A stretch of 64,000 bases of DNA from Haloarchaeobius sp. HME9146 (GTDB taxonomy: Archaea > Halobacteriota > Halobacteria > Halobacteriales > Natrialbaceae): positions 310,001 to 374,000 of the forward strand of contig NZ_JAODVR010000002.1 of NCBI RefSeq assembly GCF_025399835.1, in the 5' to 3' direction. The notes under the pieces were generated by a model. The model made no database searches. It saw only the letters and a program-made list of their open reading frames with translations, and was not told the DNA's origin. Both the position numbers and the translations under genes were made by a program. The first letter of the stretch is position 1. Each line of letters begins with the position of its first letter. Below, one piece after another: positions 33,349-59,600 of the stretch.

Positions 33349-34083
33349 ATGAGTCTGTACCAGGCCTCGTTCCGGGTGCGACACGAGTGCCCGTATCGCG
33401 ACCTCTCCGAGCGCTACCCGGACCTCACCATTCGCGAGTGGTACCTCAGCGAGTGCCAGGTGCTCGAGATAACGTCTGCCGACACGCCGACCGAGCAGTT
33501 GCTCGAGGACATCAGGGAACTCGGGACGGTCCTCCACGAGTCGGTCGACGAGTCTGGTGTCCACGTCGTCACGCAATCGTGTCTCTGTTCGCTGGAGGGT
33601 TCCATCATCGAACGGTTCGAAGACCACGCGTGCCTCTACCAGCCACCCACGGTCCATCAACAGGGCTGGGAACACTACACCGTCATCGCGTTCGACGAAG
33701 GTGACGTGCGTTCCCTCCTCTCCGAACTCGACGCCGACCGCGATATCGAGGTACTCTCGAAGACCGCCCTCGCCGAACAACAGGTCCCCCACAGCATGCT
33801 GACGCCGGTCGACCAGCTGTTCGAGGGGCTTACCGACCGACAGCTGGCCGCCCTCCAGCTCGCCCTCGAACGTGGCTACTACGAGCAGCCACGGAAGACG
33901 TCGCTCCGTGACCTCGCTGCCCAGACCTCGGTCGCGCGGTCGACGTTCGAGGAGCATCTGCGCAAGGCCGAGAACAAGTTGCTCACGAACGCCGGGCAGT
34001 TCCTCCGGTTGCTGACCGCGATGTCGTCGGGCAACCCGCTGCAGGTCGACCGGGACGCTCCCGCGGTAGATACTGCGGACTGA
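33349..34083 (+). CDS. HTH_10 (bacterio-opsin activator type) transcription regulator
   Basis: From Met at 33349 the product is 244 residues. The C-terminal 60 residues hold the HTH_10 domain: LTDRQLAALQLALERGYYEQ followed by TSLRDLAAQTSVARSTFEEH and LRKAENKLL, the usual helix-turn-helix. The N-terminal part (MSLYQASFRVRHECPYRDLS) is a ligand-sensing domain found in DmsR/Bat relatives, with Cys residues (EC, SCLC) that could bind metal. The frame opens at 33250, but this Met fits the family. It is divergent from the MFS transporter and might regulate it. A nonamer mini-array begins 2 bp after the stop. Confidence 0.9.
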   Translation: MSLYQASFRVRHECPYRDLSERYPDLTIREWYLSECQVLEITSADTPTEQLLEDIRELGTVLHESVDESGVHVVTQSCLCSLEGSIIERFEDHACLYQPPTVHQQGWEHYTVIAFDEGDVRSLLSELDADRDIEVLSKTALAEQQVPHSMLTPVDQLFEGLTDRQLAALQLALERGYYEQPRKTSLRDLAAQTSVARSTFEEHLRKAENKLLTNAGQFLRLLTAMSSGNPLQVDRDAPAVDTAD

Positions 34084-34084
34084 A

Positions 34085-34147
34085 CCGTGTAGACGGTTTA
34101 CACGGTCTACACCGTTTTTCCTTCGAGAACGGTGTGGACAGCCTCAC
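34085..34147. repeat. Seven-unit nonamer mini-array, like the parA-upstream array
   Basis: In strict 9-bp register the sequence reads CCGTGTAGA, CGGTTTACA, CGGTCTACA, CCGTTTTTC, CTTCGAGAA, CGGTGTGGA, CAGCCTCAC. The first three and the sixth match the unit pattern of the 56189-57556 array; CCGTGTAGA also occurs there at 57060-57068. It contains the dyad ACCGT-gtag-ACGGT (34084-34097). It sits between convergent genes and could also act as a bidirectional terminator (T-run at 34115-34119). Confidence 0.6.
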
Positions 34148-54896: not shown

Positions 54897-55358
54897 CTAC
54901 TCCTCGCGAGCGTCGATTATCTCATCGATAAGCGCGTCAGTGTCCGAAGCAGCCACTCTGAACACCGCATCGTAGAACTCGCGTCCGGTCAGACTGCGAA
55001 CGTCGTGTTCGGTCCGGAGCTGTGCATCGACGAGCGCCTGTGCGTCTTCGAGCCCCTCGATAGTCTGCTCGCGCACGTACACGGTCTTCTTCTTGGTTGC
55101 GTCGAACGGGAACGCGGCCGGGTCGGTATCTTCAGCTTCTTCGTCGTCGCTCTCGTCCGTGTCGGCGTCCGCCTCCCGAGAATCCCCATCTTCCGCCTCT
55201 GACTCCGGGGGTTCAGGCTCCGATTCGGTGTCCTCGACGGACGCCGTCTCCTCCACACTCGGTTCCGGTTCTGGCTCTGGTTCCGTGGAATCCTCCGTCT
55301 CCGCTTCGTCACCCTCTACGACCTCGCTCAGCCCCGCGAATCGGTTGTCGTCAGGCAT
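54897..55358 (-). CDS. Acidic ParA partner with predicted ribbon-helix-helix domain
   Basis: From ATG 55358 the product is 153 residues. Residues about 12-85 are extremely acidic and disordered (Glu/Asp/Ser/Pro). The C-terminal 65 residues are ordered: KKKTVYVREQTIEGLEDAQA, then ALVDAQLRTEHDVRSLTGRE and FYDAVFRVAAS, a strand-helix-helix pattern that fits an RHH DNA-binding fold. Its start overlaps the ParA stop by 8 bases, so the two are co-expressed. By position and fold it should be the centromere-binding protein of the ParA system, and its target is probably the nonamer array. The frame extends to 55553 but that extension is unlikely. Confidence 0.7.
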   Translation of the reverse strand: MPDDNRFAGLSEVVEGDEAETEDSTEPEPEPEPSVEETASVEDTESEPEPPESEAEDGDSREADADTDESDDEEAEDTDPAAFPFDATKKKTVYVREQTIEGLEDAQALVDAQLRTEHDVRSLTGREFYDAVFRVAASDTDALIDEIIDAREE

Positions 55359-56178
55359 CCTCGACACCTCCCGCTTCCACGACGCCGGCAAGCTCGTCGA
55401 GCCTGCCGAGCATGTCGCTCTCGGGGTCGTACTGTGCGAGGGGCTGGCCCTCACGCCAGGACCGCCGGAACGCGATGCGCTCGCGGATACCCGGCCCCGG
55501 GGAGTCGGGGTCGTCGAAGTGTGCAGAGCGGCCGAACCCGGGGAGGTATTCACCGAACTGTGACTCCTCGAGGTCGGTGATGATGCGCTTCTCCTCGTTG
55601 GTCCCCGAGGTCGCGTTCGGGACGATGGCGAGGATGTCCAGATCGATCTCCTGGCGGATGGGGACGATCTGCTGTTTGAACATGCGCTCGAACCCGCTCA
55701 CGCTGGGTTCGCTCATCCGGAGCGGGACGATAACGTGCTGGCTCGCGATGAGTGAAGCGTCCGAGAGCGGCCCGAGGTTCGGGGGTGAGTCGATGACGAT
55801 GTAGTCGTACTCCTCACCGAGCAGTGGTTCGATGACCTTGTTCCGAATCCAGAGTTCGCCGAAGGTCGCGCTTCGAATCGTGTTCTCGACGCCATCGAGG
55901 TCCTCGTTCGCGGGGAGGACGTCGAGGGTCTCGGTCTCCCGGATGATGTCCCCGAGCGTGGCATCGCCATCGTCGACGAGCACGTCCCCGATGTGGGTGT
56001 CGGCCGTGTAGGCCTCTGCCAGGCCAAGGCCTTCGGTCGCGTTCCCTTGCTGGTCGAGGTCGACGAGCAACACGTCGTGGCCTCGGTTCGCGAGTCGTTC
56101 GGCGAGGTTGATGGCGATCGTCGTCTTCCCGACGCCGCCTTTCTGTAGGGCGACGCTTACCGCGCGTGGTGTGGTCAT
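55351..56178 (-). CDS. parA: ParA/Soj family partition ATPase
   Basis: The 275-residue protein has the deviant Walker A KGGVGKTTIAIN (about 13-24), LLVDLDQQGNATEGL (Walker A' region, about 39-53), and YIVIDSPPNLGPLSDASLIA (Walker B, about 111-130). It lacks an N-terminal DNA-binding domain, so it is a small-type (Ib) or chromosomal Soj-like form. In partition, ParA moves cargo over the nucleoid with a partner protein bound at a centromere. The partner gene overlaps downstream and the repeat array begins 11 bp upstream of the start codon. Confidence 0.92.
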   Translation of the reverse strand: MTTPRAVSVALQKGGVGKTTIAINLAERLANRGHDVLLVDLDQQGNATEGLGLAEAYTADTHIGDVLVDDGDATLGDIIRETETLDVLPANEDLDGVENTIRSATFGELWIRNKVIEPLLGEEYDYIVIDSPPNLGPLSDASLIASQHVIVPLRMSEPSVSGFERMFKQQIVPIRQEIDLDILAIVPNATSGTNEEKRIITDLEESQFGEYLPGFGRSAHFDDPDSPGPGIRERIAFRRSWREGQPLAQYDPESDMLGRLDELAGVVEAGGVEDA

Positions 56179-56188
56179 TGGTGGTGGA

Positions 56189-57556
56189 ATGTGTACACTG
56201 TGTAGACGGTTCGCACTGCCCGGCAGACCAATACGGCCTGCAACGCCGACACAGAGAGGACAGTCGACACCGTGTCGAATGTCTACACTGTGTGGGCCGT
56301 CCGGGCAGTGCGGGCGTTCCGCACGGTCAGTACCGTCTCCACCCGGTGACTTAACGGTATCGCTGACAGTTCAGACAGTCAAGACAGTCCACACTGTGTA
56401 GACGGTGTGAAACTCCGATAGAGCCTCGGCAGTCTCGAACGTGAACACATCGACCGCGGTTTGCACATCCCCGGCATCCTACACAGTTCGAACTGTGTAG
56501 ACAGTCCAAACTGTGTTTCTGGATATCGATCACCCAGCAGAGTCGCCAGTAGCAGGAGCCCACTGTGCGAGTAGTTTGGACTGTCCACACAGTGTAGACG
56601 GTTTCGACAGCCCGCACTGGGTGTACGGTTCGGCAGCCAGCTGGACTCGAGAGCGATCGCCAGAGATTGAAACCACACTTAGACAGTTCACACATCTCAC
56701 ACTGTGTTGTTCAACCTGTTTCCTAGAAGAAGCCGTAGACGCATTCTAGGCGCCACCTACACAAGCAATGTCCAGACTGTGTAGACATTGTGATTCTCAG
56801 TCTGTAGCCGAACCTCCGAGATCACCAACACAAACAGTCCAGGATGTGCAAACGATGTGGACTTCGAGCACGGCCCAGCTGCCGCCCACCGTCTGGACTG
56901 CTCGCCCCGTCTCGACGGTATACAACGCGACCACATTCCCCACAGTCCACAACGCGTACACCGTGTGAGATTTGTAGACCGTATGCACAGCACGCACATC
57001 TGGAGCAGTGTAGTTCACGAAGACCGTACAAACAGCCCAGACGCCGTAGACGGCACACACCGTGTAGACCATACACACAGTGTGAACATTGTACACATCC
57101 TCGACTGTGACCGCAGTCTGATGGCAACCGGGATGTCCGGGCATCGTGCACAGTCCTAACAGTCCAGACAGTCCACACAGTCCACACCATCCACACATTT
57201 CAGACTGGGGAGCACCTAGTACGCATCGTGGACAGCGCACGCAGCCCAGGAATTCTACGCCGTTTACACAGTTCACACATCGTACACTGTCCTTGGGGCA
57301 TCATCCACGGAATTCCGAGTGGCCAGTTCAGACAGTACAAACATCGCAAACTGTGTGAGCCGTTTACGAGGTTCGCACAGCTCACGAGGCGCGGCGAAAC
57401 CTGAACCCAATCACTGTCCCAAACCATCAGGCCATCGCCTGCGATTTCAAATCGTGATGGCCAGATCGAACCTTCGACAGAAAGCAGTGCAGACCTCATC
57501 AGATTTCCACACAGTTCACACCACCCACACCGTGTAAACTGTGCATACAGCCCAAC
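56189..57556. repeat. Array of about 110 degenerate nonamer units (putative partition site)
   Basis: The region reads as abutting 9-bp units with approximate consensus C-N-[G/T]-T-N-[T/C]-N-[C/G]-A, for example CTGTGTAGA, CAGTCCACA, CCGTGTAGA, CATTGTACA. In-register blocks by eye: 56189-56341 (17 units), 56367-56519 (17), 56554-56634 (9), 56675-56710 (4), 56768-56794 (3), 56835-57122 (32), 57133-57213 (9), 57224-57295 (8), 57324-57386 (7), 57485-57556 (8). Neighbouring blocks are out of phase by odd spacers. Some units form dyads such as ACTGT-gtag-ACAGT. It lies between parA and a bat-type gene. Protein-like frames across it (poly [T/A]-V-x) are artefacts of the 9-bp period. Confidence 0.8.
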
Positions 57557-57594
57557 GGTATGCACTCGTTCACGTCCGACTCTTGCAGGAATGT

Positions 57595-59286
57595 TCAGCG
57601 CTCGTCCAGGATAGCACGAAGAACGGAGCGCTCTGCCTTCCGGAGGTGGGCGTGCAGCGTCGACGGCGCGATTCCGATGGACGCCGCAACCTCCTCGGCA
57701 GTGCTCTGGCGGGGCCAGTCGAAGTAGCCCGCTCGGTACGCCGTCTCGATAGCCTCGCGTTGGCGGTCGGTCAACCCATCCAGCGGTGCACCGAGGTCGA
57801 GGTGGTCGGCGACAGCCCGGTCGCGTTCATGCTGGGAGATGAGTTCGCCCCCGGAGAGAACCGAAGTCACGCGACTGGCCAGCGCCCGGACATCGATGTC
57901 GGCGGATGCTTCCAGAACGAATCGGCAGACACCATCGATTGCCTCCGTTCGGCACAGCATCGCACCGGCCTCGGCCAGCAACTCGAACAGTTCGGAGCGT
58001 TCGAGTGCGTATTCGAGCAACCCATCGCCGGGGTCGTCACGGATGATGCGGACTGATTCGACGTTAGACTCTTCGAGGCCAGCTTCACGAAGACGGCCAG
58101 AGTCCACTCCCGAGGACGAGACGTAGACCAGCCACGAGCCCGACCGGGTGATGTGATAACCCTCTATAGACAGCGCACATTCGAACCGGGCCGAGTCACG
58201 GACGAGGAAGACGTCCGAATCGGTGATGCGGAACTCGAGTTCGACGACCGCATCGGCGTAGAGCAACCGCTTGCTCTCGGTAGCGTTGATGGCGAAGCCA
58301 ACCGTCTCACCAAGCAGTTCGAACCACGCTTGCTCCCGGGGGGTGAACGCGTCCGGCTCCCCAGAGTAGACCGTCAGCACGCCGTACACCGACCCGCCGT
58401 GACAGAGCGGGGTTGCAAGGGCGGAACGAATGTCGGCCCCACCAGCTGCTTCTGACCACAGACCACACGACGTGTCAGCTGCGATATCGTGTGCGACCTG
58501 ACTTGTGCCAGTGTCGTACACGCGCTCGCACATGACGTCTCCCAGTTCGACCGAGTCAGCTGTCGCGACCGACTCCAGTACGCCAGCGTCCTCGCCTGCA
58601 CACGCCCGAACGTGCATCGCCCCAGCGCGCCGGGTGCCAACCCAGGCGAACCGGTACCGTGACGATTCGACCAGCGACTCGCAAGCGATGGCTTCGATAT
58701 CGCGACGGGTGCCGGTCTGGCCCAGTTCACTGACGATCGTCGACAAGAGGGCCCCGATGTGGTCGAGGGTGGCCAGTTCCTCACGTCGGCGCGCCAGCTG
58801 GTCGTGGCCCACCGTATACGACCACTCGTTTCGGCCCCTCCCGTATCCACCACGGCCAGCTCCAGAGACCTCGTTCGCCGTGGCTGGTCCAGGGGCCTGC
58901 CAGGCCGATGCGGGGCGTGCGACGATTGCCGCGGTGTCCAAGCCGGTCCGGTAGAAGGTCAACTGAACGACTGCATCCTGTCCACCCGCGTCCCCAGTCT
59001 CCCCCAGTTTCGAGCCGCCATCCTTGCGCAGCCGGACCCGGACCGTCCTGGTTTCGGACCCTTCGCCAGCAAACGTCTCGCCGAGTGCCTGTTCGAGAGC
59101 ATCGTGGTCGGACTCCACATACGGTGCAGTCACGTGTCCACCCACGAGAGCTGCCGGGTCGTCGTACCCGTGGAGCGTGGCGAACGACCCGGCAACCGAC
59201 TCGAACGACCGGCCCACGACGGTCGCCGCCCCCGTCGAATCCGAGAGCGAGGGAACACCCTCCTGTTCTCCCCTCCGGAAATCCAT
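57595..59286 (-). CDS. GAF - bacterio-opsin activator - HTH_10 regulator
   Basis: From Met at 59286 the product is 563 residues. The N-terminus (about 10-130) resembles a PAS-like domain (SFESVAGSFATLHGYDDPAA). A GAF domain lies about 165-320 (ELATLDHIGALLSTIVSELG; SALATPLCHGGSVYGVLTVY), followed by a bacterio-opsin activator domain (about 330-480) and the C-terminal HTH_10 (LTDRQREAIETAYRAGYFDW; STAEEVAASIGIAPSTLHAH; LRKAERSVLRAIL). Bat relatives control bacterio-opsin and other genes in response to oxygen or light. It ends 38 bp from the nonamer array. Confidence 0.9.
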   Translation of the reverse strand: MDFRRGEQEGVPSLSDSTGAATVVGRSFESVAGSFATLHGYDDPAALVGGHVTAPYVESDHDALEQALGETFAGEGSETRTVRVRLRKDGGSKLGETGDAGGQDAVVQLTFYRTGLDTAAIVARPASAWQAPGPATANEVSGAGRGGYGRGRNEWSYTVGHDQLARRREELATLDHIGALLSTIVSELGQTGTRRDIEAIACESLVESSRYRFAWVGTRRAGAMHVRACAGEDAGVLESVATADSVELGDVMCERVYDTGTSQVAHDIAADTSCGLWSEAAGGADIRSALATPLCHGGSVYGVLTVYSGEPDAFTPREQAWFELLGETVGFAINATESKRLLYADAVVELEFRITDSDVFLVRDSARFECALSIEGYHITRSGSWLVYVSSSGVDSGRLREAGLEESNVESVRIIRDDPGDGLLEYALERSELFELLAEAGAMLCRTEAIDGVCRFVLEASADIDVRALASRVTSVLSGGELISQHERDRAVADHLDLGAPLDGLTDRQREAIETAYRAGYFDWPRQSTAEEVAASIGIAPSTLHAHLRKAERSVLRAILDER

Positions 59287-59600
59287 AATCGGTACACGAA
59301 AGCAGGACATTTCAAGATTGTGACCGTGACACGAAGCACGTAGCGTCTACATTATTACCGATAACTCCCGTCACGTTGGTGTATGTCTGGGGTGGAACGC
59401 GGGCAGCGGTTTCGTGGGGCTAAGAACAGCGATATCGCAGTTTTGAACGGTTACCCACCCCGTTCGGTTCAGCGCGCGAGCCGCGGAATCGATGTCGAGA
59501 CTCGCGACGAATCCGACGAACGCTCGCGAAACACGAGAAAACACATACGAACCGAAACATGTCGGTTACACCCTGCGGATTGCAGTGAGGACGGCCGCCG
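59287..59600. other. Intergenic region upstream of the PKD protein
   Basis: About 314 bp between divergent genes. A frame over 59383-59604 has no motif and is not called. The inverted repeat AACCGA-aacatg-TCGGTT at 59550-59567 lies 33 bp before the PKD start and may be an operator or part of the promoter. AT-rich DNA at 59345-59365 may serve the divergent regulator. Confidence 0.4.
59550..59567. promoter_or_regulatory. Inverted repeat before the PKD gene
   Basis: Six-bp perfect arms (AACCGA/TCGGTT) around a 6-nt spacer, 33 bp before ATG 59601. Possible operator; no regulator known. Confidence 0.35.

Follow-up and report, generated by a model that had tools for sequence, protein, structure and literature searches.

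Plasmid pSM19035 carries delta/omega, a ParABS partition system of type Ib. Its centromere parS occurs at six sites, each made of 7-10 contiguous repeats of 7 bp, and the activation of ParA requires a run of at least four of them (PMC9499535). In type Ib systems, the centromere lies upstream of the operon, in the order parS-parA-CBP, where CBP is the centromere-binding protein (PMC5016525). The parFGH system of TP228, also of type Ib, has its centromere parH upstream of the ParA gene and the gene of the CBP, ParG, downstream, and ParG has a flexible N-terminal tail (PMC5016525). In archaea, SegAB of Sulfolobales joins a ParA relative to a small site-specific DNA-binding protein, SegB, whose sites are isolated 13-bp palindromes (TCTAGASTCTAGA), chromosomal and mostly intragenic, some clustered near the genes and others scattered (PMC12284271). 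The AspA-ParB-ParA system of Sulfolobus pNOB8 consists of three proteins, including a winged-helix AspA and a 470-aa ParB, and its DNA-binding dimer spreads into a left-handed helix (PMC5120986). According to a review of the field, how the centromeres of archaeal plasmids and chromosomes look is an open question (PMC5120986). A passage in PMC2841640 relates that tandem repeats of Haloferax, now CRISPR, were suspected of a partitioning role in the 1990s (Mojica 1995).

Here we describe a large array of 9-bp units beside a haloarchaeal parA. The window is the whole 64-kb stretch of DNA that was analysed, and its features are summarized in Table 1. The locus resembles pSM19035 in that ParA is small and lacks an HTH, the partner is small too, short contiguous repeats lie upstream of the par genes and each replicon has several sites; the minimum of four repeats in pSM19035 compares with 4-6 units in the satellite clusters found here. 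Unlike in pSM19035, the pitch is 9 bp, the unit is symmetric, each array holds 43-117 units and the host is an archaeon, and the partner differs from omega in being not recognisably RHH and in having a long acidic linker. The type Ib features found here are the small deviant Walker ParA without HTH, the order parS-parA-CBP and the overlapping genes. The tail of ParG is a further likeness to the partner; however, the repeats of parH are separated by AT-rich spacers and ParG is an RHH protein.

The locus resembles SegAB in having an archaeal ParA relative, a small and here putative DNA-binding partner, and sites both near the genes and scattered, but its sites are unspaced 9-mers on secondary replicons. 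The consensus ACNGTSYRS at a 9-bp pitch and a partner profile that matches no PDB chain set it apart from SegAB. With pNOB8 it would share archaeal plasmid partition; however, there are only two short proteins, parA and the 153-aa partner being followed by an unrelated CitMHS transporter gene, together with an explicit repeat array. Type Ia ParABS has an HTH/CTPase ParB and an inverted-repeat parS downstream, whereas here the partner gave no ParB-family match and the array is upstream of parA.

Table 1. Coordinates of the proposed partition cassette and of the related repeat clusters (positions in the window unless contig C2 is named)
Feature	Position	Strand	Remarks
Partner gene, 153 aa, proposed centromere-binding protein	54897..55358	-	start overlaps parA stop by 8 bp
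Partner C-terminal 72-residue domain	54897..55115	-	strand-like KKTVYVR and three helices; putative DNA-binding part
parA, 275-aa Walker ATPase (KGGVGKT)	55351..56178	-	adjoins array; without N-terminal HTH region
Main array, unspaced 9-bp units	56184..57566	.	11 in-register blocks with a total of about 106-117 units; candidate centromere (parS)
Longest block without a phase break (32 units)	56831..57120	.	
Satellite, about 4-5 units (ACCGTGTAGACGGTTTACACGGTCTACACCGT)	34075..34124	.	intergenic, between a pair of convergent genes; 22 kb away from array; C2 344075-344124
Other C2 satellites	C2 437714-437754; 550569-550627; 577959-578017		symmetric-matrix scan

A 9-bp periodicity in interrupted blocks

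The identity at lag 9 in 56179-57575 was 0.39, compared with 0.254±0.012 in 500 dinucleotide-preserving shuffles (shuffle maximum 0.294; z=11); the excess over shuffled controls on which the earlier note had let its claim depend is thus present. Lags 18, 27, 36, and 54 were raised as well, and lags 3, 6, 8, and 10 were not. A coding origin of the periodicity was rejected on the flat lags 3 and 6. A cyclic 9-state HMM gained 335 nats on the array over an iid model, compared with about 17 on shuffled sequence, and the gain was far smaller for periods of 7, 8, 10, and 11 than for 9. A CRISPR or a simple tandem duplication was also rejected, since spacers are absent and TRF detects only 5.4 copies in the array.

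The 11 blocks obtained by Viterbi decoding add up to 1051 bp, which corresponds to 117 units; complete units number 106. The earlier note had read about 110 abutting units in about ten in-register blocks, and both counts agree with the decoding; to this must be added that seven non-repeat stretches of 22-87 bp each break up the array and occupy approximately a quarter of its span. The longest block had been placed at 56835-57122 and was decoded with the same 32 units, shifted by a few bases (Table 1). Elsewhere in the window, a second comparable array was not found, and the only other cluster was one satellite of four units.

The consensus of the unit, ACNGTSYRS, is two-fold symmetric about N: A/T pair at positions 1 and 5, C/G at 2 and 4, S at 6 and 9, and Y/R at 7 and 8. 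Units such as CTGTGTAGA and CAGTCCACA are therefore two readings of one site, and within-unit correlations revealed no distinct orientation classes of units. In the register C-N-G-T-S-Y-R-S-A, positions 1, 4, 6, and 9 are constant as had been proposed, and position 3 (G, 70%), which had been overlooked, is equally so.

parA and its partner

The start of parA lies immediately beside the array and the partner gene follows parA, which bears out the reported adjacency and gives the cassette order array - parA - partner. ParA matched AAA_31 (1.4e-38), with the ATPase domain from residue 5, and its nearest structures were Soj/ParA (E about 1e-24). A scan for sigma-70 promoters and terminators, models inapplicable to archaea, returned no matches, and the parA promoter and the centromere candidate are inseparable by sequence.

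In the partner, a variable linker rich in acidic residues connects the N-terminal motif MPDDNRFAGL to a conserved C-terminal domain. This layout was common to nearly all partners examined: the N-terminal motif is short and D-N-[RP]-F-x-x-[LI]-like, the linker is again acidic and variable, and the conserved C-terminal domain spans about 72 residues. AlphaFold modelled the full-length partner with a pLDDT of 61 and the C-terminal domain alone with a pLDDT of 95, as an extended KKTVYVR followed by helices 16-37, 44-57, and 59-71.

The partner had been predicted to be an RHH protein. Sequence searches in Pfam, NCBIfam, PHROGs, and PDB gave no match for it, hhalign of its profile with omega (1irq) and CopG (2cpg/1b01) was negative, and a Foldseek search with the pLDDT 95 model of the C-terminal domain found neither a PDB match nor a significant one in BFVD. 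The elements can be seen to follow a beta-alpha-alpha order, and an RHH protein is possible, although these homology and fold searches lend it no support. The C-terminal domain is a conserved family without a Pfam or PDB match and a candidate for DNA binding.

Conservation of the cassette in Halobacteria

Close orthologs of the ParA/partner pair (76-94% ParA identity, same family) have an array directly upstream of parA in all 27 cases, and the earlier note's concern that relatives keeping the parA pair might lack the array was not borne out among them. These arrays measure 0.65-1.6 kb, with a median of 50 complete units and a range of 43 to 114, and have the common consensus ACNGTSYRS; the symmetry of the nonamer ranges from r 0.79 to 0.99, always about the same axis, and reached r=1.00 in a matrix pooled from 44 loci of the same ParA clade.

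Period 9 was significant upstream of parA at 64 of 83 loci, pNRC100 among them, compared with 2 in the downstream controls; the 700 bp upstream of parA were tested, with random segments of 700 bp drawn from two replicons as the reference (p<0.01). The 83 loci are not all independent, and a few genomes occur twice under two names. About a dozen more distant ParA/partner loci had no significant array within 700 bp upstream, and one group of ParA relatives had period 9 at none of seven loci. The array is thus common among ParA loci, not universal. Members of this array-free group are about 50% identical, start with MRGITVTLQKGG or MNGLTVTLQKGG, and lack the partner gene at its usual place, with no obvious acidic partner downstream. 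A ParA search of the genome contigs matched mainly unrelated bacterial ParA. When genomes lacking parA were scanned for a 3-unit motif with one mismatch, GC-rich coding sequence was matched as well.

Most of the 27 orthologs are on contigs of 70-270 kb, several of which are complete named plasmids such as pHTUR04, and near-relatives are mostly on plasmid-annotated records. Halobacterium pNRC100 and pHTUR03 have short arrays (approximately 170 bp) of another nonamer. The nonamers follow the clades, with ACNGTSYRS in the main clade, YASCTR in a second, and a TATTC/GAATA-like unit in the pNRC100 clade, while the nine-base pitch is common to all. Across 64 loci, the more two ParA proteins differ, the more their nonamer matrices do (Mantel r 0.85, p 0.0005). 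In the sister genome, the array is 68% identical to the one described here over its whole length, compared with 61-64% for shuffled sequence, and 88% identical in the 200 bp nearest parA. Motif and pitch have therefore been kept and the sequence has not, since the sister arrays are barely above shuffled identity.

Satellite clusters on the secondary replicon

The window is part of contig C2 (674,682 bp); the other contigs are C1 (3.49 Mb) and C3 (23 kb). C2 has a sole Cdc6_C match at C2:558749, and its only tRNA genes by ARAGORN are five (Asp, Glu, Val, Ala, and Asn) at approximately 577-579 kb, which make it chromid-like. C2 is apparently a chromid or megaplasmid, judging from its size, its own orc1/cdc6, and the plasmids of the orthologs.

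The scan for satellites covered C2 apart from its last 682 bases and a sample of the main contigs of two genomes, 180 kb of C1 and 40 kb of the sister. Four satellites of 4-6 units each were found on C2 with scores of 32-37.5 bits, whereas the main-contig maximum was 11.5 and no satellite was found in the 220 kb scanned there. Column-permuted matrices gave a mean of 1.3 and a maximum of 15 matches above threshold, the maximum arising because some column permutations resemble the original matrix. An exact pattern of three half-spaced cores, searched in the whole genome, gave overlapping matches on C2 only and scattered singles on C1.

On the 753-kb contig of the sister genome, the array occupies 72.5-74.0 kb, and the clusters again number exactly four (20.1, 90.0, 598.1, and 632.6 kb). 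When the flanks were aligned, the satellites S2, S3, and S4 were at orthologous intergenic spots and S1 was approximately 4.5 kb off. S4 (in C2:576000-580000) lies between tRNA-Glu and tRNA-Val.

Discussion

As judged from sequence comparison, the array very probably serves as the centromere (parS) in a partition cassette of the ParA type, by which the 675-kb secondary replicon would be maintained. We favour this reading because array, parA, and partner are kept together, each clade has one symmetric nonamer, the pitch is fixed, and the satellites are restricted to the replicon in the DNA scanned. The centromere proposed in the earlier note thus gains strong comparative support from the linkage to parA and partner, from a motif constrained despite turnover, and from the satellites.

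An array acting only as an operator, with many autorepressor sites for the parA operon and no centromere role, is quite unlikely. It would fit an array that covers the promoter-proximal region and is best conserved in the nearest 200 bp, and the known CBPs omega and ParG are also repressors (PMC5016525). However, more than 100 units over 1.4 kb are far too many for an operator, and conserved satellites are found up to approximately 210 kb away, one of them between convergent genes and another between tRNA genes. We also consider it very improbable that the array is a replication origin element, that is, iterons or ORB-like sites for Orc1/Cdc6 or Rep. The cassettes of Haloferax mediterranei pHME505 and Haloferax larsenii pHl5678-2 are indeed a few kb from orc1/cdc6, which suggests a replication-partition module in these two megaplasmids, but such proximity is seen only in Haloferax; the only Cdc6_C match of C2 is approximately 192 kb from the array, the region of pHTUR04 examined is without an adjacent orc1/cdc6, and the motif follows the ParA clade. 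A neutral periodicity, left by a decayed tandem duplication or as a coding or structural by-product, hardly deserves credence. It would fit the degeneracy of the units, only about five of which TRF picks up, but 27 species share the motif and its symmetry though sister arrays hardly align, lags 3 and 6 are flat, and satellites exist.

For the centromere reading, we propose that the partner would bind as dimers, one on each nonamer, by means of its C-terminal domain, and that dimers lined up side by side every 9 bp would form a long nucleoprotein filament. The conserved N-terminal D-N-R-F-x-G-L peptide, presented by the acidic linker, could contact ParA-ATP on the nucleoid and trigger its ATPase, and the copies of the replicon would be separated and positioned in the manner of ParABS systems. 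Probably the operon is also autoregulated through the array, which covers the parA promoter, and the satellites probably act as additional binding sites by which the replicon would be held or compacted.

A fixed pitch with changing letters is the trace expected of a protein packed side by side whose specificity evolves, and the clade-specific nonamers suggest an incompatibility code. Haloterrigena turkmenica has pHTUR03 and pHTUR04, with different nonamers, in one cell; a second close ParA ortholog is listed for none of the 27 genomes, and a ParA of another clade for many. Different nonamers would probably allow several such replicons to coexist. In its specificity logic alone, this is comparable to ParMRC of Clostridium perfringens, where families of centromere repeats are partner-specific and decide incompatibility (PMC9426499), unlike here with an actin-like ParM motor and 17-bp direct repeats.

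The earlier note had spoken of a new centromere type. The kind, a ParA partition system with an iterated centromere, was already known; what appears to be new is the size, the symmetric 9-bp unit, the family to which the partner belongs, and the occurrence of satellites. In the literature searched, which covered few subscription journals, we found no account of haloarchaeal arrays like these. Only tentatively, and with more doubt than confidence, we suggest a distinct haloarchaeal partition class, in which a CBP of a new fold, made up of the motif peptide, the acidic linker and a three-helix domain, would pack over approximately 50-117 sites at a pitch that is always 9 bp. The clade-specific nonamers would serve as an incompatibility code, and the conserved satellites would organise the whole replicon.

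The locus offers an example of period-9 packing in which the letters evolve, the pitch stays constant, and an incompatibility code is predicted, as well as a protein family with a confident model of its C-terminal domain. It may find use in stabilising haloarchaeal vectors. On the far side of the array, a GAF/BAT/HTH_10 regulator gene (bacterio-opsin activator-like; 57595-59310 in the window) has its end toward the array. Many haloarchaeal secondary replicons now have a testable centromere candidate, including pNRC100 and the megaplasmid of Haloferax mediterranei, a member of a cultivable and genetically tractable genus. The short array and parA of pNRC100 and of pHTUR03 have an AbiEi/AbiEii toxin-antitoxin pair immediately upstream.
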